Below, piece after piece: positions 1 through 59,292 of a stretch of DNA of 64,000 nt (its first letter is position 1; every line of letters starts with the position of its first letter). The stretch spans positions 1-64,000 of the forward strand of contig JAJDCU010000059.1 in assembly GCA_029260655.1 (NCBI GenBank), written 5' to 3'. Under the pieces are notes generated by a model. It was not told where the DNA came from, searched no databases, and was given only the letters and a program-made list of their open reading frames with translations. The stretch comes from Phycisphaeraceae bacterium (GTDB taxonomy: Bacteria; Planctomycetota; Phycisphaerae; Phycisphaerales; Phycisphaeraceae). Both the position numbers and the translations under genes were made by a program.

Positions 1-745
1 GGGCCGGCGTTTCTTCGGCGGGCTTGGCTTGAGGCTTGGGCTTGATCTTGGTCACCGTCGCGGTCACGCCTTTGCCACCGGGCGTGCTGGTCTCACGTCG
101 GCCGCCGCCGCGCTTGCCACCGGACCGGCCACCTTGCTTGCCGCCACCACGTTCGTTGGCCTGCGCCGCGGCGGGTGCCTGGTCGCTGGCCGCTTGGGGC
201 TTGGCCGTGGTCGCGGTGTAACGTTTGCCGATCGCGATCAACTCATCCACGACGGTGGACTCGATGCTCACGCCGCGGAAACCGGCGATCTGTTCCTTGG
301 TCCGCAGGCTAGTGAGCCCGTCGAGGACGGCCTTGGCCAGGTTCTTCTTGTTGGTTGAGCCGTAGGCCTTGGTCAGGCAATCCTGGACACCGGCCATCTC
401 CAGGACGGCGCGTGCGGTGCCCCCTGCGATGACCCCGGTACCCGGCGCCGCGGGCAGCAGCCGGATCATCGAGGCGTTGAACCGTCCCTCGATCGGGTGC
501 GGCAAGGTGCCGTCCTTCAACTCGACACGGACCAGGTTCTTGCGCGCGGCTTTCTGCGCCTTCTCGATAGCGACGGGGACGCCCCGGCCCTTGCCGTAGC
601 CGATCCCGACGCTGCCGCGCCGATCCCCGACAACGACCAGCGCGGCGAAGCTGAAGCGCCTGCCGCCCTTGACGACTGTCGCGGTACGGAAAATCCCGAC
701 CGTGGTCGATTCCAGTGCTTGTGTATCTTCGAGTAGTTCCGGCAT
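1..745 (-). CDS. rpsE: 30S ribosomal protein S5, 3' end outside window
   Basis: S5 of the small ribosomal subunit, near the decoding site. The ATG at 745-743 opens a frame that runs off base 1 with no stop, so at least 248 codons are present. Both S5 subdomains are recognisable, with GIGYGKGRG near residues 47-55 and a GTGVIAGG turn near residue 105. S5 is normally about 165-175 residues. After about residue 170 this one continues as an Ala/Gly/Lys/Arg-rich tail with runs such as GGGKQGG and GGKRGGG. The tail is seen directly; its role is unknown. The gene follows rplR by 56 bases in standard spc order. Confidence 0.96.
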   Translation of the reverse strand, partial: MPELLEDTQALESTTVGIFRTATVVKGGRRFSFAALVVVGDRRGSVGIGYGKGRGVPVAIEKAQKAARKNLVRVELKDGTLPHPIEGRFNASMIRLLPAAPGTGVIAGGTARAVLEMAGVQDCLTKAYGSTNKKNLAKAVLDGLTSLRTKEQIAGFRGVSIESTVVDELIAIGKRYTATTAKPQAASDQAPAAAQANERGGGKQGGRSGGKRGGGRRETSTPGGKGVTATVTKIKPKPQAKPAEETPA

Positions 746-801
746 GTTGTTCCTCTAAACACTTTCCCTCGGCATCTGGCCGACGGTGTGAGCCTGACTG
801 A

Positions 802-1152
802 TTACAGCCCCAAGCCCGCTTTCCTTGCAGCCTCCGCCAAGGCCTTGACTCGGCCGTGGTACCTGAATCCGTTGCGATCAAAAGCGACTTGGGCGATCCC
901 AACGCCCTTGGCCTTCTCCGCGATCTGCTTGCCGACCTCGACGGCGGCGGCGGTGTTCCCACCGTTGCCCGCCTTGATCGAGCTGGCCGATGCGAGCGTC
1001 CGCCCGTCCAGGTCGTCGACGATCTGGGCATAGATGTGGCTGAGACTGCGGTATACCGTCAGCCGGGGCCGCTGGGGCGTTCCCTGGACGCGCTTACGGA
1101 TGCCGGTCTTACGGCGTTGACGTCGCATGGTCTTGAGTTTGTTCTTTTCCAT
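802..1152 (-). CDS. rplR: 50S ribosomal protein L18
   Basis: L18 binds 5S rRNA in the central protuberance of the large subunit. The 116 residues match the normal family length. The basic N-terminus (about residues 3-25, [12 protein letters not shown]) is followed by the L18 core, with [16 protein letters not shown] near residues 28-43 and a family-like end ([13 protein letters not shown]). It lies 56 bases after rplF and 56 before rpsE on the transcript. No strong Shine-Dalgarno is visible, so translational coupling is likely (inference). Confidence 0.97.
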
Positions 1153-1208
1153 CGTGTTAACTCGCTGCTACGGCTGGTTTCAGCCGGGTGCATAGCTCTG
1201 GTCTGTGT

Positions 1209-1748
1209 TTATCCGCCGCTGGCAAACGCCTTGCCCTGCTTGCGGATGATGTGCTCGTCGGCATACTTGATCCCCCGGCCGTTGTAAGGCTCGGGCTTAC
1301 GGTGCGATCGGATCTCGGCGGCCACCTGCCCGACCAACTGCTTGTCCGGGCCGCTGATCTTGAGCTTGTTCTGCTGGATATCGACGGTGATGCCCGCGGG
1401 GACAGTTACGACCCGGGTGTCGGCGTACCCGACGTTCAGGTTGACCTTGTTGCCCTGGAGCTTGGCGGTCCAGCCCACGCCGTTGATCTCCAGGTGCTTT
1501 TCAAAGCCCTTGGTTACGCCGGTGATCATGTTGGCGATCAAAGAGCGGGTCAGCCCGTGCATGGCCTTGGCGTTGCGTGAGTCGTCCTTACGCTCGACGA
1601 TGACCAGGTCGCCCTCGACCTTGACGGTGACCTCGGGACGGTGGGTCATGCTCAGCCGGTTGCTGCCGGACTCAACGGTGACCTGAGCGCCGCTGACCGA
1701 CACCTTGGTGCCGGCGAGGGGGATGGGTGTTTTACCGATACGAGACAT
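1209..1748 (-). CDS. rplF: 50S ribosomal protein L6
   Basis: L6 lies near the factor-binding region of the large subunit. At 179 residues it has the expected length. It starts MSRIGKTPIPL and ends with the conserved KPEPYNGRGIKY block (about residues 152-163). Two copies of the L6 fold can be followed (about residues 1-80 and 85-170). An AAAGGA-like Shine-Dalgarno precedes the ATG at 1748. It sits between rpsH and rplR in normal order. Confidence 0.97.
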   Translation of the reverse strand: MSRIGKTPIPLAGTKVSVSGAQVTVESGSNRLSMTHRPEVTVKVEGDLVIVERKDDSRNAKAMHGLTRSLIANMITGVTKGFEKHLEINGVGWTAKLQGNKVNLNVGYADTRVVTVPAGITVDIQQNKLKISGPDKQLVGQVAAEIRSHRKPEPYNGRGIKYADEHIIRKQGKAFASGG

Positions 1749-1805
1749 CGTAAGAATCCTTTACCGCGTTAGGCGGTGTCGGGCCGGGGATGGGCCCGTC
1801 CTGTT

Positions 1806-2204
1806 TTACTCGACGGTACACAGCAACTCACCGCCGACATGCTTTAGCCGGGCCTGACGATCGGACATCACCCCGCCGGACGTGCTGACGATGGTGATCC
1901 CAAGGCCCCCCAGCGGTCGGGGCAGGCTATCGGCCCGGGTGTAGACCCGGCAGCCCGGCTTGCTCTCGCGCCTGAGGGTATGGATCAACTGCTCACCGTT
2001 TGGCCCGTAACGAAGGTCCACACGGAGGATGCCCTGTCGGCCGTCGTCGACCACGCTGAAGCTGGAGACATAGCCTTCGTCCTTGAGGACCTGGGCGATG
2101 CCGGCGCAGATCTTGCTGTTACGGCAGTCGACACGCTTGGCCTTGATCCGCGCGGCGTTGCGGACACGGGTGAGCATGTCGGCGATGGGGTCTGATAAAG
2201 ACAT
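1806..2204 (-). CDS. rpsH: 30S ribosomal protein S8
   Basis: S8 binds the central domain of 16S rRNA and in several bacteria is the translational repressor of the spc operon. At 132 residues it is normal length. It begins MSLSDPIADMLTRVRNA and has the C-terminal VSTSGGVMSDRQAR block. The ATG at 2204-2202 lies inside a heptad repeat unit (GCTAATG on the mRNA). The only Shine-Dalgarno-like sequence, AAGGG ten bases upstream, is also repeat sequence. Start choice is supported by family alignment. Confidence 0.97.
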   Translation of the reverse strand: MSLSDPIADMLTRVRNAARIKAKRVDCRNSKICAGIAQVLKDEGYVSSFSVVDDGRQGILRVDLRYGPNGEQLIHTLRRESKPGCRVYTRADSLPRPLGGLGITIVSTSGGVMSDRQARLKHVGGELLCTVE

Positions 2205-2293
2205 TAGCTGTTAGCCCTTAGCTGTGTGTTTTCCACGTTAGTTCAATCTCTTTCACCGCCGCCTGCTAATGGCTAATAGCCGGCGGCTGACAA
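2204..2293. repeat. Inverted heptad repeat before rpsH (copy A)
   Basis: Gap between rpsN and rpsH. The plus-strand left arm at 2204-2226 reads TTAGCTG-TTAGCCC-TTAGC; the right arm at 2265-2293 carries GCTAATG-GCTAATA-GCC. The arms are made of 7-base units and are roughly complementary across a spacer of about 40 bases. On the mRNA the arm next to rpsH supplies AAGGG and the ATG itself. This is the most degenerate of the five two-armed copies. Confidence 0.7.
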
Positions 2294-2298
2294 CTCTC

Positions 2299-2568
2299 CT
2301 ACCACGACGCCTTGCGCATCCCCGGGACCTTGCCTTCCAGAGCCAGTTCACGCAGCTTGATCCGCGAGATCCCGAACTTGCGGTAGACCGAGCGTGATCG
2401 CCCGGTCAGGGCACAGAGGTTGCGGTACCGCGTGGGGCTGGCGTTGCGTGGCAGCTTCTGGAGCGCGGCGTAGTCGCCCTCCTTCTTAAGCTTGTGACGC
2501 AGTTCGGCGTACTTGTCGATGGTCTTCTTGACCTTCGCCATCCGGATGCTGGTTGACTTCGATGCCAT
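2299..2568 (-). CDS. rpsN: 30S ribosomal protein S14, zinc-free type
   Basis: S14 of the small-subunit head. At 89 residues it is the long form that lacks the CxxC...CxxC zinc ribbon: where the zinc form has paired cysteines, this one reads [20 protein letters not shown]. It ends in the conserved [10 protein letters not shown]. It lies 41 bases after rplE on the transcript and 94 bases before rpsH. Confidence 0.97.
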
Positions 2569-2609
2569 GGTGTTGCCGTGTCCGTTTCGTGTGTGTGTGT
2601 GCTGACCGA

Positions 2610-3176
2610 TCAGCCGTCCTTCTCGGGCCTGACGAATGGGAAACCCATCTCGGTGAGCAGAGACCGGGTCATCTGGTCGTTGCTGTTCTTAAAAATCAGG
2701 TTGATGTTCATCCCGTGGGTGTACTGAACGCTGGTCATGTCGACCTCGGGGAAGATGCCCTGCTCGTTGATGCCGAACGAGTAATTGCCCCGCCCGTCAA
2801 GCTTGTCTTTGAGCCCGCGGAAGTCCTTGATCCTGGGGATGCCGACGGTGATCAGCCTGTCGAGGAACTCCCACATCCGGTCACTGCGGAGGGTCACCAT
2901 CGCCGCGACCTCATAGCCCGCACGGAGCTTGAAGTTGGCGACGGACTTCTTGGCCTTCTTGACGATCGGCTTCTGCCCGGAGATCAGTGACAGGTCCTGC
3001 AGCACCTGCTCACGTGCCTTGGGGTTGAGCTTGGTGCCCTCGAGCTCCTTACCCATGCCGACGTTCAGGACGATCTTGTCGAGCGTGGGCATCGCCATCG
3101 GGTTGGAGATGCCGAACTGCTCTTTGATCTTGCCGGTGATCTGTTTGTCGTATTGTTCTTTTAACCGCGGGGTCAT
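2610..3176 (-). CDS. rplE: 50S ribosomal protein L5
   Basis: L5 binds 5S rRNA and contacts P-site tRNA in the central protuberance. The 188 residues are slightly longer than the usual 178-180. Typical blocks are [14 protein letters not shown] (near residue 28), [14 protein letters not shown] and the [17 protein letters not shown] region (near residue 107). The mRNA just before the ATG is a heptad repeat arm, with AAAGG eight bases upstream of the start acting as a likely Shine-Dalgarno. Confidence 0.97.
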
Positions 3177-3179
3177 TTT

Positions 3180-3275
3180 CTTAGCCTTTAGCTGTTAGCC
3201 CTTAGCCGTTAGCCTTGTAATCTCGTTTCCGTCCTCTTACTAGCTAATAGCTAACGGCTAATAGCTAATGGCTGC
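3180..3275. repeat. Inverted heptad repeat before rplE (copy B)
   Basis: The clearest copy. The left arm at 3180-3214 holds five heptads of the type TTAGCCT/TTAGCTG/TTAGCCC/TTAGCCG. The right arm at 3240-3275 holds GCTAATA-GCTAACG-GCTAATA-GCTAATG. Spacer about 25 bases, AT-richer than its surroundings. The arms can fold into a long imperfect hairpin on the transcript. The mRNA arm adjoining rplE contains the AAAGG that is correctly spaced from its ATG. Confidence 0.85.
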
Positions 3276-3277
3276 TG

Positions 3278-3610
3278 TTATCTCGCCTTCTTCAGTGCCG
3301 GGCCTAATTGCTCGCCGGTGCTCGCGGCGACGCGGATCTTCGAGCCGTCGTCCTTGGTCACAAACCGCACGCGGGTCGGCTTGCCGTCGGCGATGGGCGA
3401 GACGTTGGAGATGTGGATGGGCATCTCCTTGTGGACGACCCCGCCCTGGGGGTTGCTCTGGTTGGGGCGGACGTGCCGGGTGCGGATATTCGCGCCCTCG
3501 ACCACGACCTGGTTATCCTCCGTCAGCACACGGAGGATCTTGCCCTGCCGGCCCTTGCTGGAGCCGGCGGTGACGATGACGGTGTCGCCTTTTCTTACGT
3601 GTCGTGCCAT
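3278..3610 (-). CDS. rplX: 50S ribosomal protein L24
   Basis: L24 is an assembly initiator near the exit tunnel. The 110 residues contain the KOW motif at the start (KGDTVIVTAGSSKGRQGKIL, about residues 7-26) and the NPQGGVVHKEMPIHISNV block near residues 53-70. Normal length. The start at 3610 lies eight bases downstream of an AAAGG that belongs to a heptad repeat arm at 3618-3650. Confidence 0.97.
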   Translation of the reverse strand: MARHVRKGDTVIVTAGSSKGRQGKILRVLTEDNQVVVEGANIRTRHVRPNQSNPQGGVVHKEMPIHISNVSPIADGKPTRVRFVTKDDGSKIRVAASTGEQLGPALKKAR

Positions 3611-3617
3611 TGATGAA

Positions 3618-3650
3618 GCCTTTAGCCGTTAGCTCTGAGCGGTTAGCAGC
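3618..3650. repeat. Half copy of the heptad repeat before rplX (copy C)
   Basis: Only the arm next to the start codon is present, in a 49-base gap between rplN and rplX. The plus strand reads CCTTTAGCCGTTAGCTC, then GGTTAGCAGC. No complementary arm is visible, so this copy could not form the long hairpin. It still supplies AAAGG eight bases before the rplX ATG. Confidence 0.65.
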
Positions 3651-3659
3651 AGAGCGGGG

Positions 3660-4046
3660 TCAGACCACCTCCGATGCGAGGGAGACGATCTTCATAAAAT
3701 TCTTCTCACGCAATTCTCTGGCGACGGCGCCGAAGATGCGCGTGCCCCTGGGGTTGCCCTCGTCGTCGATCAGCACCACCGCGCTGCGGTCGAACCGGAC
3801 GTAGCTGCCGTCCTTGCGGCGGATGGGGTTGCGTGTGCGTACGATCACGGCCTTGACGATGGTCCCGGTCTTCATGTCGCTGCCGGGCAGAGACTTCTTG
3901 ACCGAGCAGACCACCTTGTCGCCGACCCCCCCCGACTTACGGGTGTATTTACCCCGGCCGGTGGACCCACCCAGGACGCGGATCACATACGCGATCTTGG
4001 CGCCGGTGTTGTCCGCGACATCGACTCTTGATTCTGCCTGAAGCAT
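3660..4046 (-). CDS. rplN: 50S ribosomal protein L14
   Basis: L14 is part of the L14-L19 bridge to the small subunit. A longer frame opens at 4187, but the family N-terminus ([17 protein letters not shown]) begins at 4046, which gives 128 residues against the usual 122. Conserved blocks include [34 protein letters not shown] and [15 protein letters not shown]. The upstream in-frame codons overlap rpsQ and are rejected as coding. Confidence 0.96.
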
Positions 4047-4090
4047 GACGAATATCCTCACAGTACGCCCGGGGGGCGGCCCGACGCGTG

Positions 4091-4396
4091 TCAGGCGGTG
4101 GCTTCCTGTTTGTGTTCCAACGGTGCGGGGGCCTTCTCGACCACCTTGATTAAGCGCCAGCTCTTGGTCTTGCTGATCGGTCGGCACCCGGCGATCTCGA
4201 CCCGGTCGCCCTTGTGACCCTGGTTCTGCGGGTCGTGGACCTGGAACTTGGCTTGGCGGTGCAGGTACTTGCCGTACTTGCGGTGCTTCTGCTGGTAGTC
4301 CACCGCAACGGTGCAGGTCTTGTCGCGCTTATCGCTGACGACGACCCCGATCTTCTTGCCGGTCAGTTGACGCTCGGTGATTGCTTTTTCTGTCAT
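4091..4396 (-). CDS. rpsQ: 30S ribosomal protein S17
   Basis: S17 is an OB-fold protein binding the 5' domain of 16S rRNA. Its 101 residues include a core with [14 protein letters not shown] (about residues 18-31), then the [16 protein letters not shown] block and [18 protein letters not shown]. The C-terminal tail is somewhat longer than in E. coli. Its ATG overlaps the rpmC stop by four bases (4393-4396), so the two are translationally coupled. Confidence 0.97.
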
Positions 4397-4596
4397 TTCG
4401 AGGACTCCCGCAGTTGCCGGGCACGCTGCTCGGTGAGCAGCCGTGCGATGTCTCGGCGGAGGTTCCCAAGCTGCTTGGGGTTCTCCAGCTTCTCGGTCAC
4501 GGCCTGGGTCCGCAGCTCGTAGTGCTGCTTGCGGAGCCGGTCGACCTCGACCTTCAACTCGGCGTCTTTGAACTTGTGTGTTTCACTGGCTTTCAT
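4393..4596 (-). CDS. rpmC: 50S ribosomal protein L29
   Basis: L29 is a small two-helix protein next to the peptide exit tunnel. At 67 residues it is normal length, with the conserved RKQHYELRTQAVTEKLENP region (about residues 22-40) and RRDIARLLTEQRAR near the end. The stop overlaps the rpsQ start (ATGA). It lies 45 bases after rplP on the transcript. Confidence 0.96.
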   Translation of the reverse strand: MKASETHKFKDAELKVEVDRLRKQHYELRTQAVTEKLENPKQLGNLRRDIARLLTEQRARQLRESSK

Positions 4597-4641
4597 AACG
4601 GTCTCACGTCCCGCGGTCGCCGCGGGGTGGTCTGCGGTGTC

Positions 4642-5058
4642 TTAGGCGTGACGTTTCTCCACGAACCGGCACTTAAACGGCATCTTGTGCGAGACGCGGG
4701 CGAACGCCAGCCGGGCGACATCCCGTGGCACGCCGAGGATCTCGTAAACGACCGTGCCGGGCTTGACCCGGGCGACCCAGTACTCGGGTTCGGCCTTGCC
4801 CTTGCCCATGCGTGTTTCAAGGGGCTTCTTGCTGATCGGCTTGTCGGGGAAAACGCGGACGAACAACCGACCTTCACGGCTGACGTACTGACGCGCGGCG
4901 ATACGTCCGGCCTCGATCTGGCGTGCGGTCAGCCAGCCGCCTTCCAGGAACTGCAGGCCGTACTCCCCGAAGGCGACGAAGTTGCCTCGGTGGGCGTTGC
5001 CGCGCAGCTTCCCGCGCTGCTGCTTGCGGAACTTAACTCGTTTGGGCATCAAAGGCAT
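4642..5058 (-). CDS. rplP: 50S ribosomal protein L16
   Basis: L16 helps shape the A-site tRNA path and is essential late in 50S assembly. At 138 residues it has the typical length, with the family start [17 protein letters not shown] and the conserved [12 protein letters not shown]-like block (here [21 protein letters not shown]). The frame opens MPLMPKRV; the second Met (5049) would match the family equally well. It lies between rpsC and rpmC. Confidence 0.97.
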
Positions 5059-5111
5059 CGGTCTTTACTCCGGTCACGGCCGTCGGCCGTATCGCTGTCG
5101 CGTGTGCTTGC

Positions 5112-5816
5112 TTAGTGGCGTCCCCGTGCCCGCGGCCTGGCGCCGGCGGCCTTGGATTCGATCTCACCCTCGGCCAGTTCGCCGTAGGGGCCGTGGTAGA
5201 CCCAGACCTTCACGCCGATGATCCCGTAGGTTGTTTGGCTCTCGGTCAGGGCGTAGTCGATGTTGGCTTGGAGGGTCGCCAGCGGGATCGCACCCAGGCG
5301 TACATCCTCGGTGCGGCTCATCTCGTGCCCGCCGAGTCGGCCGGACAACTGGATCTTGCAGCCCTTGGCGCCGGCGCTCATCGCGGCCTCGGCCTTCATC
5401 TTCATCACCCTGCGGAAACCCGCACGCTTTTGCAATTGCTCGGCGATCGACTCGCCGACAAGCTTGGCATCCAGATCGGCGTTGTGGACCTCGATGCAGT
5501 TGATCGAAACATTACGCCCGGTCAGCCTTTGAAGCTCAGCCGTCAGGGCGTCGATCTCGGCACCCTTGGGCCCGATCACCAGACCCGGCCGTGCGGTCTT
5601 GACGATGATCTTCAGCTCTTCACGGGTCCGCTCGATGTGGATGTCGCTCACCGCGGCGTACGGGGCCTTACGGTTGAACCGGTAATCGCAGAACTTGCGG
5701 ATCTTCTGGTCCTCGACCAGAAGCTCGGCATAGAGCGCTTTGGGTGCGTACCACCGGCTCTTGTGCGCCTCGGTGATGCCGACGCGGAACCCAAATGGAT
5801 GAACTTTTTGTCCCAT
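5112..5816 (-). CDS. rpsC: 30S ribosomal protein S3
   Basis: S3 lines the mRNA entry tunnel. The 234 residues begin MGQKVHPFGFRVGIT. They contain a KH domain with the GPKG loop (LVIGPKGAEIDAL, near residues 79-91) and the C-terminal S3 domain with GCKIQLSGRLGG. The end is a short basic tail (RPRARGRH). It is 47 bases after rplV on the transcript. Confidence 0.97.
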   Translation of the reverse strand: MGQKVHPFGFRVGITEAHKSRWYAPKALYAELLVEDQKIRKFCDYRFNRKAPYAAVSDIHIERTREELKIIVKTARPGLVIGPKGAEIDALTAELQRLTGRNVSINCIEVHNADLDAKLVGESIAEQLQKRAGFRRVMKMKAEAAMSAGAKGCKIQLSGRLGGHEMSRTEDVRLGAIPLATLQANIDYALTESQTTYGIIGVKVWVYHGPYGELAEGEIESKAAGARPRARGRH

Positions 5817-5863
5817 GTTGAACCTTGTCTGGCTGTCGCCGGGGCCTTAGCCCCGGGCGGGTG

Positions 5864-6217
5864 TTAGCGTCCCTTGCTTGAGTCGTCGACGGTGACGGTG
5901 ATGTGGCTGGAGCGCTTCAGGATCGAATGCGCCCGGCCACGGTCTTTGGGCTGGAACCGCTTCATGGTCTGGCCCGAGTCGACCCGGGCTTCGGTGATAA
6001 TCATCGCCAGGGCCTCACGGTCGGAGAACCCTTCGATCTCCTGGGCGTTGGCCCGGGCGGCCTGGAGGCAGTTCTTCAGCAGCACGGCGGCACGTTTCTT
6101 GGAAAGCGTGAGGATATTGATCGCATCAAACACGCTCTTTCCCTGGATCATCTGCGCGACAGGCCGAGCCTTGGTCGGGCTGATGCGTGCGCTTCGGTGT
6201 ACGTTTGTGTAAGCCAT
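5864..6217 (-). CDS. rplV: 50S ribosomal protein L22
   Basis: L22 sends a beta-hairpin into the exit tunnel. The 117 residues show the family pattern: RISPTKARPVAQMIQGK near residues 11-27, NCLQAARANAQEIEG in the middle, and the hairpin and end block RFQPKDRGRAHSILKRSSHI. The start at 6217 has AAAGG ten bases upstream, supplied by a heptad repeat arm. Confidence 0.97.
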   Translation of the reverse strand: MAYTNVHRSARISPTKARPVAQMIQGKSVFDAINILTLSKKRAAVLLKNCLQAARANAQEIEGFSDREALAMIITEARVDSGQTMKRFQPKDRGRAHSILKRSSHITVTVDDSSKGR

Positions 6218-6222
6218 GGTTG

Positions 6223-6312
6223 GTTAGCCTTTAGCCGCTTGCTTTTAGCTCGTTGCCTCTGTGTCAGTCATTCCCTCTTGCTAATAGCCAAAAAGCTAAT
6301 AGCTGACGGCTC
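6223..6312. repeat. Inverted heptad repeat before rplV (copy D)
   Basis: Lies between rpsS and rplV. The left arm at 6223-6254 carries TTAGCCT-TTAGCCG and diverged units; the right arm at 6279-6312 carries GCTAATA-GCCAAAA-AGCTAATA-GCTGACG. The arms are complementary over most of their length with some mismatches, and the spacer is about 24 bases. The mRNA arm beside rplV holds AAAGG. Confidence 0.8.
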
Positions 6313-6316
6313 CTCT

Positions 6317-6604
6317 TTACCTGACCCCCGCCCGCTGGGCCTTGGTCCCTGTGGTGTGCGCCCTGAATAGCCGTGTGATGCTGAACTCGCCGAGCTTGTG
6401 CCCGACCATGTCTTCGGTGACGAACACGCTGTGAAACAGCTTGCCGTTGTGGACCATGAACGTATGCCCGACAAACTCGGGGACGATCGTGCAGGCCCGC
6501 GCCCAGGTCTTGATGGGCTCGCGCTTGTTCATCTGGTTAAGCTTCTCGACCTTGCGGTAGAGCTTGAGGTCGACGAAGGGGCCTTTTTTCAGTGATCGTG
6601 ACAT
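6317..6604 (-). CDS. rpsS: 30S ribosomal protein S19
   Basis: S19 lies in the head of the small subunit next to S13. The 95 residues are normal, starting [12 protein letters not shown], with [19 protein letters not shown] near residues 40-58 and [13 protein letters not shown] near residues 66-78. The start at 6604 has AAAGG nine bases upstream within a heptad repeat arm. Confidence 0.97.
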
Positions 6605-6606
6605 TC

Positions 6607-6707
6607 TTAGTAGCCTTTAGCTGTTAGCTCTTAGCCTTTAGCAATCTGCGTTCTCGTGCCTGTCCGTTTCTTATCTAGCTAATAGCAACGGCTAATAGCT
6701 AACGGCT
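6607..6707. repeat. Inverted heptad repeat before rpsS (copy E)
   Basis: Fills nearly the whole gap between rplB and rpsS. The left arm at 6607-6641 runs TTAGTAGCC-TTTAGCTG-TTAGCTC-TTAGCC; the right arm at 6676-6707 runs CTAGCTAATAGC-AACGGCTAATAGC-TAACGGCT. The spacer is about 34 bases of unrelated, T-rich sequence on the plus strand. The arms are largely complementary. Confidence 0.85.
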
Positions 6708-6708
6708 C

Positions 6709-7566
6709 TTATTTCAGTTTGACCTGTCCGTAACGCTTGGAGACCCGTCGCCGAATGATCCGCTTGTTGGAGGCCTTGCCTGGCTTGCGTGTCCGCCCGC
6801 CCTTGGCCGGGACACCGGTCGGGGACGCGGGGGTACGGTTGCCTTTGCTCCGCCCGTCGCCGCCGCCCATCGGGTGGTCGTGGTGGTTCTTGGCGACGCC
6901 GCGGACGTGGGGGCGCCGGCCCATGTGTCGTGCCCGCCCGGCCTTACCCAGGACCACGCGGTTGTGATCGGTGTTGCCGACCTGCCCGATCGTCGCCCGG
7001 CAATCGACCGAGACCCGGCGGATCTCGCCGGAGGGGAACACGAGCGTGGCCCAGGGGCCTTCTTTATTGGTCAGCCGGGCGTAGGTGCCTGCCGAGCGGC
7101 ACAGCTGCCCACCGCGGCCGGCCGTCAACTCGATGTTGTGGATGTTCAACCCGGTGGGGATCTTGCCCAACGGCATGCAGTTGCCCGGCGAAGGCTCGAT
7201 CTTCTCACGGCTGGAGAGCACGGTGTCGCCGTCCATCAGCTTCAACGGTGAGACGATGTAGCGGCGCTGCCCGTCGGTGTACTCCAGCAGCGCGATGTTG
7301 CACGAGCGGTTGGGGTCGTACTCGATCCCGATGACCTTGGCCGGCATATCGTCCTTGATGCGCTTGAAGTCGATCAGACGGTAGCGCTGCTTGGCGCCGC
7401 CGCCGCGGCTCTGAACGGTGATCTTGCCGTGGTGGTTACGACCGCCGTTCTTGGTCTTCTTACGCAGCAGCGACTTCTCGGGCCGGGTCTTGGTCACCTC
7501 GGAGTAGAGGTTGACCGAGGCGTTGCGCCGGCCGTTGGTTGTCTTCTTGTAGATTCGGATGGCCAT
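6709..7566 (-). CDS. rplB: 50S ribosomal protein L2
   Basis: L2 sits close to the peptidyl transferase centre and bridges the subunits. At 285 residues it is slightly longer than the usual 273-277. It has the OB fold, the SH3-like domain and the conserved C-terminal segment GRRPHVRGVAKNHHDHPMGG, which contains the functionally important histidine region. The start at 7566 is nine bases after AAAGG in a heptad repeat arm. Confidence 0.98.
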   Translation of the reverse strand: MAIRIYKKTTNGRRNASVNLYSEVTKTRPEKSLLRKKTKNGGRNHHGKITVQSRGGGAKQRYRLIDFKRIKDDMPAKVIGIEYDPNRSCNIALLEYTDGQRRYIVSPLKLMDGDTVLSSREKIEPSPGNCMPLGKIPTGLNIHNIELTAGRGGQLCRSAGTYARLTNKEGPWATLVFPSGEIRRVSVDCRATIGQVGNTDHNRVVLGKAGRARHMGRRPHVRGVAKNHHDHPMGGGDGRSKGNRTPASPTGVPAKGGRTRKPGKASNKRIIRRRVSKRYGQVKLK

Positions 7567-7572
7567 GGTTTT

Positions 7573-7671
7573 CAGCCTTTAGCTGTTAGCTTTAGCAGTT
7601 AGCCCGATGCTTACGTCGCCGTCATTCTTTCTTCTTCTGGCTAGTAGCTAAAAGCTAATAGCTAACGGCTC
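7573..7671. repeat. Inverted heptad repeat before rplB (copy F)
   Basis: Lies between rplW and rplB. The left arm at 7573-7603 runs CAGCCTTTAGCTG-TTAGCTTTAGCAG-TTAGCC; the right arm at 7639-7671 runs GGCTAGTAGC-TAAAAGCTAATAGC-TAACGGCT. Spacer about 35 bases. Like copies B, D and E, it ends a few bases before the start codon, and its near arm supplies the Shine-Dalgarno-like AAAGG. Confidence 0.85.
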
Positions 7672-7673
7672 CC

Positions 7674-7952
7674 TTAGAACAACTCGATCCTGTCATCACC
7701 TGTCAGCTGGACGGTGGCGCGTTTCCAGTTAGCGGTCTTGGCGGGCCCGAACTTGGTTCGGAAGTACTGGCCCTTGCGGATCTGCGTGCTGACCCTGGCG
7801 ACCTTGACGCCGTAGATCGACTCGATCGCGGCCTTGATCTGCGGCTTGCGGGCCCGCATATCGACCTCGAAGCTGTATCGGCCCCGCGCCTCGGTTTCCC
7901 AGGCGCTCTTCTCGGTGATCAGCGGCTTCTTGATGACGTTGGTGGGTTCCAT
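7674..7952 (-). CDS. rplW: 50S ribosomal protein L23
   Basis: L23 at the exit tunnel is the docking site for trigger factor and SRP. At 92 residues it is normal length. It shows NVIKKPLITEKSAW near the start, the FEVDMRARKPQIKAAIESIYGVKVARV block, and a basic loop. The ATG overlaps the rplD stop by one base (TAATG at 7952), so it is coupled to rplD. Confidence 0.97.
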   Translation of the reverse strand: MEPTNVIKKPLITEKSAWETEARGRYSFEVDMRARKPQIKAAIESIYGVKVARVSTQIRKGQYFRTKFGPAKTANWKRATVQLTGDDRIELF

Positions 7953-8614
7953 TACTTGGACGCCTCCTGTTTAGCCTTAGCCAGCTCATCGCTGGTCACC
8001 CGTCCCAGGTAGGCCTGGAAGGCGTCCTTGTCCACCAGCAGGTAGCGGTGGTTGAGCAGGTCGAACGCGTTGAGGCGGTCGATCTGGGTGACGCTGACGT
8101 GTTCGAGGTTCCGGGCCGAAACGGCTTCGTTCCCGGCTGTTGAGGGGAGGGCGACCAGGCAGGTGCGGTCGATCTTGAGCGAGCCAAGGAGGGTGCTGAA
8201 CGTCTTGGTGCTGGGTTTCTTGAAGTCGAGCTTGTCGACGAGCTTGATCTCGCCGTCGATGGCCTTGGCGAGTACGGCGTTGCGGTTGGCCAGGCTGCGC
8301 ATCTTGGCGGGCATGTCCTGGCGGAACGAGCGGGGCCGTTTGGCAAAGCCGTGCCCGCCGTGCCGCATGATGTTGGTGCCCGCCGGGCCGCGTCGTGCGT
8401 TGCCTGTGCCCTTTTGCTTGTAGAGCTTGCGGGTCGAGTAGGAGGTCTCGGCGCGGCTCTTGGTCTTGGCCGAGCCCTGCCGACGGTTGGCGTGGTAGCG
8501 GACGTACGCCTGCTTGAGCAGGGCGTGGCGGACCTCGCCGCCGAGCTGCTGCTCGTCGACCTGGATCGTGCCGATCTCTTTGCCGGCCTGATTATGGACT
8601 GTGATATCGATCAT
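7952..8614 (-). CDS. rplD: 50S ribosomal protein L4
   Basis: L4 reaches into the exit tunnel; in E. coli it also represses its own S10 operon. The 220 residues are slightly long. The tunnel-loop region KQKGTGNARRGPAGTN is clear near residues 70-85, with GHGFAKRPRSFRQDMPAKMR next. It lies after a 172-base gap from rplC, which carries a REP-like hairpin, and is coupled to rplW. Confidence 0.97.
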   Translation of the reverse strand: MIDITVHNQAGKEIGTIQVDEQQLGGEVRHALLKQAYVRYHANRRQGSAKTKSRAETSYSTRKLYKQKGTGNARRGPAGTNIMRHGGHGFAKRPRSFRQDMPAKMRSLANRNAVLAKAIDGEIKLVDKLDFKKPSTKTFSTLLGSLKIDRTCLVALPSTAGNEAVSARNLEHVSVTQIDRLNAFDLLNHRYLLVDKDAFQAYLGRVTSDELAKAKQEASK

Positions 8615-8753
8615 CTTAAGTCACCTACGGTCCCCGCAGGGGGATGCGTTTGTTTCGCCGCCGGGGCAGGGCCCACACATGGGCCCGATCGGGTCGCCCT
8701 TACGACTCGGCTGTTAAACCGAATTGTCTTGGCGAGGCAGTTTCCGTTTCCCC

Positions 8754-8772
8754 GCGAAGCCGCAAGCGGCTT
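8754..8772. repeat. REP-like 19-base hairpin repeat, copy 1
   Basis: GCGAAGCCGCAAGCGGCTT in the 172-base rplC-rplD gap. The same 19 bases occur in opposite orientation at 16554-16572. The sequence can form a short hairpin (GCCGC/GCGGC). The rest of the gap (8615-8753) shows no gene. Confidence 0.6.
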
Positions 8773-8786
8773 AACGAGAGACAGAC

Positions 8787-9467
8787 TTACTTCGCCTTGG
8801 CGTGCTTGGCCTTCCCTTTGTAGAGGCGACAAGCCTCACGGACCAGAACCAACCCCTTGTTGGCGCCGGGCACGGGGCCCTTGACCAGCAGGAGGTTCTT
8901 ATCTTTATCCACGCCCACAACCGCGAGGCTGCGGACCGTGACACGATCACCGCCCATCCGACCGGACATCCGGATGCCCTTCTTGGGCTTGCCGGTGCCC
9001 AGGTTCGACGACCGACCGCTGACCGAGCCGGGCGAGCGGTGCTTGCGCTCCACGCCGTGGGACGCTAGTTGGCCCTTAAAGCCGTGCCGCTTCATCACGC
9101 CGGCAAAACCCTTGCCCTTGCTGGTCCCGATCACATCGACGTACTTCACGTCGTCAAAAATCGAGAGGGTCAACGCCTGGCCAAGCTCATAGGACGCTGC
9201 CTCGCCATCGCCAAGGCGGACCTCCCGGTGCAGCCGCTTGGGGCTGATGCCCGCTTTGGCGTCATGACCGATCAGGGGCATGGTCGAGCTACGGCCCTTG
9301 ATGTCCTCGAAGGCGATCTGAACCGCCTCGTAGCCATCGACCTCGGCGGTCTTGAGCTGGCTTACAAAACACGGGCCGGCCTGGATGACCGTCACCGGGA
9401 CGTTCATCCCTTCACCGTCGTACAGCCGGGTCATCCCTATTTTTCTACCAATAATCGCTGCGGCCAT
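8787..9467 (-). CDS. rplC: 50S ribosomal protein L3
   Basis: L3 reaches toward the peptidyl transferase centre and is one of the two assembly initiators. The 226 residues begin [19 protein letters not shown] after the Met. They contain [21 protein letters not shown] (split here: residues ~105-125) and the [20 protein letters not shown]-type extension. A GGAGA Shine-Dalgarno precedes the ATG at 9467. Confidence 0.97.
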
Positions 9468-9613
9468 CGTCTAAGTCTCCGAGGGGGCACGTGTCTGTGC
9501 GGATCGTGGCTCTCGTTCGCCAGAGGATCACGCCCCTGTTTGAAGGTAGTCGTCTACCTGTTTCTATCTAACAAACAAGCGGGACTTGCCCGCTGTTGTG
9601 CGTGCCTCGTGGG

Positions 9614-9922
9614 CTACGCCTTGATCTTCACAAAAACACCGGCCGGCACGACCAGGCGGTTGAGTGCTTCAACCGTACGGGCGTTGGGCTCGATGATGTC
9701 GATGATCCTTTTATGCGTCCGGATCTCGAACTGCTCCCGGCTCTTTTTGTCGACGTGCGGGCTACGCAGCACGGTGTATCGCTCGATGCGGGTCGGCAGC
9801 GGGACGGGCCCGGCAACCTTGGCATTGGTCCGCTTGGCGTGATCGACGATCTCACGCGCCGAAGCGTCCAGCGCCTGGTGGTCGTAGGCCTCCATCCGAA
9901 TGCGAATCTTACCTGCTGTCAT
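9614..9922 (-). CDS. rpsJ: 30S ribosomal protein S10
   Basis: S10 is in the small-subunit head and, as NusE, also takes part in transcription antitermination. Family alignment puts the start at 9922 ([16 protein letters not shown]), giving 102 residues; an upstream Met at 9949 would add nine atypical residues. The conserved [19 protein letters not shown] block is present. It is the first gene of this operon: no tuf, fusA or rpsG precedes it here. The 146-base gap to rplC holds a small inverted repeat (AGCGGG/CCCGCT near 9580-9596). Confidence 0.97.
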
Positions 9923-9995
9923 CGACGGTAGCCTCTGCTCTGACGCCACTTACACACAACACCCGCCACGAACGCCGCAGCGGGATGAGCCCGGT

Positions 9996-10023
9996 AGTCT
10001 AACCACCGCTGGAGCCTTGTCAA
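9996..10023 (-). promoter_or_regulatory. Likely promoter of the S10-spc operon
   Basis: On the minus strand TTGACA (10023-10018) and TAGACT (10001-9996) are separated by 16 bases, a close match to a sigma-70 promoter. This predicts a leader of about 65-70 bases before rpsJ. The rest of the 306-base gap 9923-10228 shows no gene. Confidence 0.65.
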
Positions 10024-10228
10024 TTCCGGTGGTTCCGGGGAAAACCGGGCTGCGGTTCAATGACCAGGCATCGATATGAGCCACCCTGTTCAGGCTGGGT
10101 GTGGCGAGGCTGTTTCCCGCCGAGGACCGACTGGGCTAAGCGTCCAAAGCTTCCTCACCTGCATGAATAACTAGGGCAGATCGGAGAAATCCCCCTTGAT
10201 CGGGCTGTCGGCTCACTTTGCAGAGGCT

Positions 10229-10630
10229 TTAGAGGTCCCGGCAAGCCTCTTCCAGGACATCTTCGGCGACGAAAATCGGGACATCCTCAGCGACACCCAG
10301 GGCGATCGCGTCGCTTGGGCGGGAATCGATGTCGACCACCTCGTCCCCACGCCGGAGGTACAGCCGGGCGAAAAAAGTGCTCTTTTTCAGCTCGCAGATG
10401 AGGATTTTTTCCAGGTGCGCATCCAGGCCGACGATCACGCTGGCCAGCAGCTCGTGTGTCAGGGGCCTGGGGGGGCTCTGACCCATCAGCCGACGCTCGA
10501 TGGCGGCGGCCTCGTTGAGCCCGATCACGATCGGGAAAATCCGCTCGCCGTCGACCTCGCGCAACTCAACGATGTGCATGTCGTCGGTCTCACGGATCAG
10601 GATCCGCGATAGCTCCATACGCACTGGCAT
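10229..10630 (-). CDS. Bifunctional nuclease family (DUF151) protein
   Basis: 133 residues of the BFN/DUF151 family, which in some organisms has been reported to have DNase and RNase activity. Family features are the start VELREVDGERIFPIVIGLNEA (split near residues 22-42), an LTHELLASVIVGLDAHLEKI stretch near residue 58, and the DEVVDIDSRPSDAIALGV signature near residues 95-112. Soluble; no signal peptide. It is downstream of rsmB on the same strand, with 150 bases between. Substrate and role here are not shown by the sequence. Confidence 0.85.
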   Translation of the reverse strand: MPVRMELSRILIRETDDMHIVELREVDGERIFPIVIGLNEAAAIERRLMGQSPPRPLTHELLASVIVGLDAHLEKILICELKKSTFFARLYLRRGDEVVDIDSRPSDAIALGVAEDVPIFVAEDVLEEACRDL

Positions 10631-10780
10631 CTAGGTTGCTCCTGACCGACTCGACGCCGGCTGACCATATGACCGCACCACAGCATCATCATAGTCCCAT
10701 CCGCTATCCGTGTGGCACAGCAACCCTATTGTGACACCCCCGCCGGGTTCCGCAAGGGCCTATTGGAAGTCGTGTTAAGA

Positions 10781-12115
10781 TTATTTCGCTGTCCGAATCA
10801 GGCAGTGATAGCCGCCGTCCTGATAGGAGGTTCCCCGGCCGCAAGGCAGCTCCTGATGCTCGTGGATGATCGAACCACGGACCAACTCGGCGAGCCACCG
10901 GGCACAGGCCTGATTTTCCTCCGATTCGAGGCTGCACGTGCTGTACAGCACCACCCCGCCGGGCTTGACCCACTTGACCGTACGGCGTGCGATCTGTTTT
11001 TGAAGCTCAACAAGCGAATTCAGCGTCTTGGGACCGAAGCGGTACCGGGCCTCCGGCCTGCGTGCGAGCACGGCGGTGTTCGAGCAGGGCACATCCAGCA
11101 ACAACAGGTCGTACTTGGAGGTCGGGCTCGCGTCCGGGGGCATCACCGCCGTGTTAGGAAGATCGGCCACGGCCTGCACAAGCGAGGCCCGCCTGGGGTC
11201 ATCCACATCGGTCGCCGTGACTTGGGCCTGTGGGTGCAGCATCGCCAATTGACGTGTCTTGGTCCCGCGCCCGGCGCAGTAATCCATCACCGAGCCGAGG
11301 GTCAGCCCGGCGGTGCTCCGGACCGGCATCGCCGAAGCCGGGTCCTGAACTCGGCGGACCGGGTCGGCTTTGAGAAACGTCACCAGCCCCTGGTGATCGC
11401 CCCGCCAGACGACATACCCCCCCGTTTGGTGCGGACGCCAGTGCTCATGTTCCACCGACGTGTCGAACCCGTCCTCGACCGCCACCACCGTCGGCGGCAG
11501 CTCGATCCCGTGGAGGCAGCACGCGGTTGCTTGCTCAAGCCCATACGCTCCGATCCACCGCTTAATCAGGCTAGCGGGGTGGCTGGTCGCAACAGACAGG
11601 TGCTTGGCGGTCATGTCGGTCGGCGGGAGCAACGCCCCGCTTAGCCGGATAAGGCCCGCGCTCAGCGGCAACGCGTCGCGGCTGGGCGTCCAGGGCGTAT
11701 CCGGTTCCACGGCGACCGCCATCGCGGCAACCTTCCTCAAGACGGCGTTGACCAGGCCCGCCGCCCCCGGACGGATCAAACGCCTGGCCAGCTCGACCTG
11801 CTCGTTGACCACCGCATGGGCCGGGAGTCGGTCCATGAATACCAACTGCGCCGCGCCGCTTAACAGCACCGCCTGGAGGGTCGGCTCCATCTGGTTCAAG
11901 GGCTTGCTCAGCACGCGGTCCAAGAGATACGCAAGCGTGATCCAGCGTTGGAGCACCGTCCGCTGGATTGCTGTGGCCAGCCGAGCGTCGGCGGGACTGA
12001 GTCCGGCGGATTCGAGCGTGCTGGCGGGGAGGTCGGGGAAGCGCTGAGCCGCCTTGGCCAGAGACGAGATCACCGCCGAACGTGCACTGGTTTTGCCAAT
12101 TGGGTCAGATCGCAT
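10781..12115 (-). CDS. rsmB: 16S rRNA cytosine-C5 methyltransferase, RsmB-like
   Basis: SAM-dependent RNA m5C methyltransferase of the Fmu/Sun family (RsmB modifies C967 of 16S rRNA in E. coli). The N-terminal NusB-like helical domain covers about residues 1-150. The catalytic Rossmann domain follows, with the SAM-binding DYCAGRGTKTRQLA motif near residue 279. Two catalytic cysteine motifs are seen: DVPCSNT near residue 338 and YSTCSLESEEN near residue 393. Length (444) fits the family. It starts ten bases after the PAS-GAF-receiver gene, suggesting one transcript. Confidence 0.92.
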   Translation of the reverse strand: MRSDPIGKTSARSAVISSLAKAAQRFPDLPASTLESAGLSPADARLATAIQRTVLQRWITLAYLLDRVLSKPLNQMEPTLQAVLLSGAAQLVFMDRLPAHAVVNEQVELARRLIRPGAAGLVNAVLRKVAAMAVAVEPDTPWTPSRDALPLSAGLIRLSGALLPPTDMTAKHLSVATSHPASLIKRWIGAYGLEQATACCLHGIELPPTVVAVEDGFDTSVEHEHWRPHQTGGYVVWRGDHQGLVTFLKADPVRRVQDPASAMPVRSTAGLTLGSVMDYCAGRGTKTRQLAMLHPQAQVTATDVDDPRRASLVQAVADLPNTAVMPPDASPTSKYDLLLLDVPCSNTAVLARRPEARYRFGPKTLNSLVELQKQIARRTVKWVKPGGVVLYSTCSLESEENQACARWLAELVRGSIIHEHQELPCGRGTSYQDGGYHCLIRTAK

Positions 12116-58906: not shown

Positions 58907-59278
58907 ATGGCGAAGGACCCCTATCAATCACACCTGAATGGTCTGCGTGAGCGGCGCAACCGGAAGGATCCGGATTTATCGCTTGGGTTTATGCGCCGCC
59001 AGTTCCAGCAGGAGGTGCAAAAGCCGTACGAGCAGTTGGGCGAACTGTCGACGATATGGGTCGAGCTTGTGCCGACCGAGTTGGCGGAGCACACACGGCT
59101 GGAGGGTTTAAGCCGGGGGGTGCTTCGGGTGTCTGTCGACTCCAGCGGTCGGCTGTACGAGCTGGACCGCCTGCTGCGCGGGGGGGTGTTTGACGAGCTT
59201 GTCAGCCGGCACCGGGGCAAGGCGCTAAGGCGGGTGGAATTGAAAATGAAGCCGATCGATTCTGGTAGCAGAAGCTAA
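58907..59278 (+). CDS. DUF721/DciA-like protein
   Basis: 123 residues from the ATG at 58907. The C-terminal two-thirds match the DUF721 core: LSTIWVELVPTELAEHTRL, then GVLRVSVDSSGRLYELDRL near residue 65. DciA is the helicase loader for DnaB in many bacteria; DUF721 members include it. The short N-terminus is basic. The stop lies inside a heptad-repeat-like tract (59267-59292). Confidence 0.8.
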   Translation: MAKDPYQSHLNGLRERRNRKDPDLSLGFMRRQFQQEVQKPYEQLGELSTIWVELVPTELAEHTRLEGLSRGVLRVSVDSSGRLYELDRLLRGGVFDELVSRHRGKALRRVELKMKPIDSGSRS

Positions 59279-59292
59279 TAGCTAACCGCTTG
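59267..59292. repeat. Orphan heptad repeat arm
   Basis: AGAAGCTAATAGCTAACCGC-type sequence with GCTAATA-GCTAACC units, the same as the ribosomal-operon copies, but without an opposing arm. It overlaps the end of the DciA-like gene and abuts the SLC13 gene end. Confidence 0.65.

Follow-up and report, generated by a model that had tools for sequence, protein, structure and literature searches.

The window, that is, the whole 64,000-nucleotide stretch of DNA analysed here, opens with a minus-strand S10-spc operon of ribosomal protein genes. Six genes of this operon are preceded by arrays of a GCTAANN heptamer with AAAGG or AAGGG 8–10 nt 5' of the ATG, and the distances given in the original prediction are exact (rplE 8, rplX 8, rplV 10, rpsS 9, rplB 9 and rpsH, which carries AAGGG, 10), as is its reading of the ordinary Shine-Dalgarno (SD) sequence of rplC as GGAGA, which lies 9–10 nt 5' of the ATG. 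In five of the six gaps, an arm of TTAGCNN heptamers lies 3' of the preceding stop codon. TTAGCNNTTAGC has 21 matches within the window against 0.01 expected, and the chance that each of the six genes would carry a correctly spaced AAAGG or AAGGG is ~3 × 10⁻¹², a rough estimate from composition alone.

The element at 3177–3275 fills the gap between rplX (CDS 3278–3610) and rplE (CDS 2610–3176); like all features below, it is read on the minus strand. It comprises a post-stop (5') TTAGCNN arm after the rplX stop (3241..3271), a purine-rich loop (3217..3240) and the rplE pre-start (3') arm GCTAACGGCTAAGGGCTAACAGCTAAAGGCTAA (3181..3216), whose AAAGG ends 8 nt before the ATG. The two arms pair with 6 bp and one mismatch per heptamer, giving a fold of four stacked units with a stability 8 SD beyond dinucleotide shuffles. 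Direct reading bears out the predicted duplex of GCUAAAGGCUAA with UUAGCUAUUAGC, in which 11 of 12 positions pair, one of them as G-U, and one is mismatched.

Both arms are found, as predicted, in four of the five remaining copies. The rplV pre-start arm (6224..6250; SD AAAGG, 10 nt to the ATG; CDS 5864–6217) faces a degenerate rpsS post-stop arm (6282..6312), the rpsS pre-start arm (6611..6645; SD AAAGG, 9 nt; CDS 6317–6604) faces the rplB post-stop arm (6676..6707), and the rplB pre-start arm (7574..7605; SD AAAGG, 9 nt; CDS 6709–7566) faces the rplW post-stop arm (7640..7670). Before rpsH (arm 2204..2222; SD AAGGG, 10 nt; CDS 1806–2204), the rpsN post-stop arm (2260..2285) lies within its own GC-rich hairpin and leaves the rpsH SD unpaired with it. 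The rplX copy consists of the 3' arm alone (3619..3649; SD AAAGG), the opposite arm being absent here and in all five congeneric species. One further array lies outside the operon in a convergent gap (59274..59285), with TTAGC in the sense orientation 3' of the minus-strand gene's stop.

Two of these gaps hold other elements in related genomes. In the rplW-rplB gap of two sister loci (L066, L064), unrelated GC-rich hairpins of the CGGCCAAGATGGTCGGG type, one of them in tandem, replace the heptamer element of the window. In the rpsN-rpsH gap, a GAGATTGAATAAGAGTGAAATTCACAG-like block before rpsH is conserved genus-wide (L062, L064, L065, L066), which makes it a candidate for a control element separate from the arms.

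Across the genome from which the window comes (3.5 Mb in 83 contigs), TTAGCNNTTAGC has 99 matches against 3 for the reversed control, and the triple pattern has 24 + 21 matches against 0. These fall into 42 separate array sites, of which 6 are in the S10-spc operon (0.07 expected for that length) and 36 elsewhere, in flagellar, secretion and tRNA neighbourhoods. Genes behind these other sites encode a flagellar rod protein, FliF, FliH, type II secretion F, SecE, S7, Obg and a metallo-beta-lactamase fold protein. The array is thus a genome-wide family and not an r-protein-specific device. Its units are tandem with a 7-nt period in intergenic DNA, where lag-7 matches are enriched, as expected of a heptamer class. 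The triple pattern occurs in all five congeneric genomes searched and sporadically in other genera of the family; a MAG labelled ‘Phycisphaera sp.’ (L092) shares ~70% DNA identity with the array loci of two congeneric species, a match that fixes the position of the lineage. Another dispersed palindrome, CCGCTTGCGGCTTAGCG, adjoins some arrays (L045, L046).

The arrays are strictly oriented with respect to genes, as counted with simple gene calls on stretches of this genome and of sister species. Array sites fall in 99 co-directional, 8 convergent and 3 divergent gaps, against 166, 18 and 33 control gaps, so that divergent gaps are avoided (3/110 vs 33/217; Fisher p = 3 × 10⁻⁴). In the direction of the mRNA, TTAGC arrays start at a median of 11 nt past the stop, and the median distance from the end of a GCTAA array to the start is 14 nt; gaps with two arms show TTAGC followed by GCTAA in 20 of 20 cases. 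Single arms obey the same rule, with 42 TTAGC and 6 GCTAA arrays near stops and 2 and 14, respectively, near starts (p = 8 × 10⁻⁸), although p-values from pooled counts, here and below, overstate independence, as the five or six species are related and some sites are orthologous. At several sites the array itself supplies the TAG stop of the upstream gene (distances to the stop of −4, −11 and −18).

That the repeat arm supplies the SD, as originally predicted, is upheld by its distribution: AAGG is strongly enriched, and solely in the start-proximal unit. With spacer AG or GG, it is found in the last pre-start unit of 24 of 32 arrays, compared with 49 of 337 other units (OR 17.6, p = 1 × 10⁻¹²), and an SD is present in 35 of 43 gaps with a GCTAA array against 46 of 111 control gaps (p = 1 × 10⁻⁵), gene starts being computational, from our own simple gene caller and homology. 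The recurrent pre-start form is GCTAACAGCTAAAGGCT-N6 to 8-ATG. In orthologous r-protein gaps of six species, AAGG stands at 8–10 nt in all 25 gaps with a repeat arm, and it outlasts the heptamer: sister species have CAGGTAAGGC before rpsH and AGAAGGCT before rplX, with AAGG kept and the heptamer decayed. In two species without the element, rplE uses AGGA as its SD.

AAAGG matches the anti-SD of the family, CCUCCUUU. The anti-SD CCTCCTTT was found in two genomes of the family, and because the family 16S ends in CCTCCTTTCT, AAAGG pairs fully; both complementarity to the 16S 3' tail and the 5–10 nt spacing expected of an SD are thus present, with the tail taken from relatives (the genome's own 16S is absent from the assembly). 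We infer that ribosomes use the arm-borne SD.

We consider it likely that the arrays form a genus-wide family of polar intercistronic heptamer arrays in which the start-proximal array is the translation-initiation region of the downstream gene. Computation establishes the SD enrichment, the position, the polarity and the conservation at orthologous sites. In this reading, the mRNA carries (TTAGCYN)n after stop codons and (NRGCTAA)n before start codons, and the last complete pre-start unit is held to GCTAAAGG(CT), putting AAAGG 8–10 nt before the ATG, where it would pair with the 16S tail. Arrays turn over in steps of complete 7-nt units and through drift of their spacers, the TTAGC/GCTAA core being kept. 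Where both arms are present an intercistronic hairpin could form, but not as a conserved or tuned gate over the SD; its role, if any, might be that of a general intercistronic stem-loop.

Orthologous sites show what is kept and what turns over. Outside the operon, 22 orthologous groups mostly hold an array at the same place and of the same kind (post-stop, pre-start or both), while the spacers, the flanks and the number of units vary. The loop between rpsN and rpsH persists in a species that lacks the 5' arm, which indicates that arms come and go around resident sequence, and at the rplB gap sister species carry an unrelated hairpin. In one group (group 21, involving G004), the TTAGC array of one species corresponds to a CAAGCCT array at the orthologous site of another. 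Derivation of single arms by decay of palindromes was rejected, since GCTAA-like remnants occur in only 7 of 45 TTAGC-only gaps (control 4/111) and the kinds of site are conserved.

Among the alternatives, a mobile or self-spreading palindrome of REP or MITE type that landed in the operon gaps, with an incidental SD role, would account for a dispersed, intergenic and palindromic repeat that avoids divergent promoters as REPs do. Y1 transposases are present in the genus; in another genome (G019; L322, L332), long CGATTGC arrays in both orientations lie on either side of a conserved core, much as in a mobile palindrome whose ends are made of heptamers; and the TTAGC palindrome itself occurs in at least 113 stretches from many phyla, which rules out a genus-specific origin of the palindrome. 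Yet the loops differ from site to site and match the local gap sequence, even in orthologues without arms such as rpsN-rpsH, single arms are conserved as single arms, and AAGG is strongly selected at starts. This genome has Y1_Tnp genes on three contigs (C16, C43 and C51), none of which carries an array, and Y1 transposases also occur in genera without arrays; for want of any physical link between arrays and Y1_Tnp genes, a RAYT origin was discarded. A mobile origin is accordingly unlikely.

The palindrome was never found inside a long ORF in the 113 loci, 18 of which, at contig or locus ends, could not be placed. It occurs in 3 of 392 genomes of a Planctomycetota sample. Viral contigs hold 40 palindrome stretches, whereas the controls give 13 (reversed), 15 (6-nt) and 10 (8-nt), so that period 7 is favoured, though other motifs occur too; two IMG/VR contigs (3300021255_003533 and 3300028833_000521; L202, L211, L227) bear many TTAGC palindromes each.

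Another alternative is translational coupling, in which the hairpin would tie the post-stop region to the SD until a ribosome that ends translation of the upstream gene opens the hairpin base and releases the SD. The geometry fits, with 5' arms beginning ~10 nt past stops and SDs in the outermost 3' unit. Pairing of the SD with post-stop sequence also exceeds controls (0.25 vs 0.08, p = 0.03), and when the 15 nt that follow the stop are masked in silico, the SD becomes free at rplE, rpsS and four other sites. The mean gain on masking is, however, no larger than in controls (p = 0.66), most sites have one arm alone and stay so, and arm covariation is nil; coupling is an unlikely explanation.

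Binding of the repeats by a trans-acting RNA-binding protein, by analogy with the proposal for TAACTGA repeats in Beggiatoaceae (PMC4679880), would suit a core that is kept across orthologous sites while spacers are free, a fixed 7-nt spacing and the polar position at stops and starts. The motif nevertheless differs between genera (G011), and even at one orthologous site (group 21, above), so that a motif-specific reader would need to change with it; we regard such a protein as a rather unlikely explanation. Ribosomes might instead stall at a stem that lies ≤15 nt from the stop, lowering the output of the upstream gene. The median onset of 11 nt past the stop is in keeping with this, as is the precedent of E. 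coli REPs, which affect translation when ≤15 nt from stops (Liang 2015, as summarised in PMC12306157). Most post-stop arrays lack a partner arm and fold no better than controls (z −0.9 vs −0.7), however, and stalling by analogy with REPs appears very unlikely.

The original prediction proposed further that the opposite arm could hide the SD and so gate several r-proteins together; in such a model, a regulator (S8, L4 or another) or temperature would open the hairpin and switch the genes jointly. Two-armed gaps do fold well below shuffled sequence (mean z −3.7 vs −0.7 for controls). Thermodynamic folding of short segments, on which all accessibility values here rest, gives the rplB, rpsS and rplE SDs of this genome probabilities of 0.66–0.73 of pairing with the 5' half of the gap, and the rpsS SD of a sister species (G004) one of 0.80; the clustering of 6 of the 42 sites in the S10-spc operon also speaks for gating. 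Against it, rplX lacks the 5' arm in all six species, several other start-proximal arrays have no opposite arm, and GCTAA-only sites stay GCTAA-only among orthologues (groups 4, 14 and 18). In none of the six species does the rpsH SD pair with the 5' half of its gap, that of rplV hardly does so, and the strong pairing at rplE and rpsS in some species is not kept in most orthologues, two sister species missing the rplE element altogether.

Cognate arms pair no better than arms of other sites (residual +0.4 kcal/mol, p = 0.68, n = 24), which argues that the hairpin is not maintained at each site, and arm SDs are no more hidden than ordinary ones, being in fact a little more accessible (mean unpaired probability 0.61 vs 0.50). 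The same module stands before flagellar and secretion genes, no Rfam leader family matched in window positions 1–12000, and structure is not conserved across orthologous operons, as it would be in an autoregulatory r-protein leader. Orthologues, arm complementarity, SD accessibility and ribosome masking all fail to support the gating hairpin, which is the least probable reading of all. As two-armed gaps are strongly folded and three of the six r-protein SDs (rplE, rpsS and rplB) are predicted to be mostly paired in this genome, pairing may still have a species-specific effect on translation.

The preferred reading, a polar array whose last unit is the SD, has a counterpart with another motif. 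In genus g7 (G011), arrays of GCTTGAG stand after stops and those of CTCAAGC before starts, the S10-spc region included, and before two S10-spc genes the last units read CTCAAGG (L067:8076-8117 and 9472-9507), which sets AAGG 8–10 nt 5' of the ATG. Within the window's own genus, SD-less starts behind TTAGC arrays carry C-rich CCCAGAC heptamers, with a lag-7 signal of 55.6 per thousand against ~4 at other lags, and CCCAGAC/CCCTAGA is a second 7-nt family of the genus. More tentatively, this layout could be family-wide, with polar heptamer arrays of genus-varying motif (TTAGCNN/GCTAANN, GCTTGAG/CTCAAGC, CCCAGAC), one sense past stops and the complementary one ahead of starts, a last unit adjusted to the SD and a common 7-nt mechanism that generates and maintains them; if so, the mechanism would be either a transcription-tied replication or repair process or a reader of 7-nt spaced RNA.

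Two further observations concern related sequences. C-rich heptamers (CCCAGAC, CCCTAGA) stand before SD-less starts behind TTAGC arrays, both in this genome (L035, L056, L060) and at sister loci (L273, L277). In other genera, the rplB-rpsS gap of L067 and the rplW-rplB gap of L075 hold GC-rich palindromes that end in TTAGC/GCTAA, with AAAGGG between palindrome and start.

In E. coli, S8 controls the spc operon, and the rplE element is similar in being a structure close to the rplE start in an r-protein operon; it differs in that two congeneric species have no such element at rplE and that unrelated genes are preceded by it as well. With REP, BIME and REPIN elements, as described in PMC3733652 and PMC12306157, the arrays share dispersed intergenic palindromes, placement within 15 nt of stops and rarity in divergent gaps. 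Unlike them, they have neither a conserved palindrome core nor a GTAG tag, grow unit by unit and are conserved as single arms; in place of a conserved 20–40 bp palindrome with a tag, loops differ and the heptamer core alone is common to sites.

Heptamer repeats are described as over-represented in bacteria, little studied and of unexplained role in PMC4692102, whose GGGAATC/GGGGATT heptamers of Xanthomonas and Nostoc are G-rich and in part inverted (Rehm 2015). Like these and the cyanobacterial STRRs, the present arrays are intergenic, with a conserved core, variable positions and some inverted repeats; they differ from GGGAATC/GGGGATT, which is G-rich and quadruplex-forming, with no SD role described there. 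Searches of the open-access literature returned no description of the TTAGC/GCTAA motif, the exact repeat giving only chance primer-like matches, and none of a heptamer array in which a unit serves as the SD. The core TTAGC/GCTAA with a free spacer matches none of the named subfamilies TAACTGA, GGGAATC and STRR.

Also among the closest parallels are the TAACTGA heptamers of Beggiatoaceae, which precede starts, in r-protein operons too, mostly without an SD (MacGregor 2015, PMC4679880). The two families are alike as 7-base intergenic direct repeats, mostly right before starts, r-protein operons included, and patchy across phyla. TAACTGA arrays, however, replace the SD and have no SD character, whereas in TTAGC/GCTAA the last unit is the SD; and where TAACTGA shows one inverted repeat, TTAGC/GCTAA has polar, often palindromic arms with free spacers. 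Strong comparative evidence here ties one repeat unit to a definite task, that of serving as SD for the gene that follows. The strict stop/start polarity, seen again with a different motif in a second genus, opens the long-standing question of heptamer array function to direct tests.
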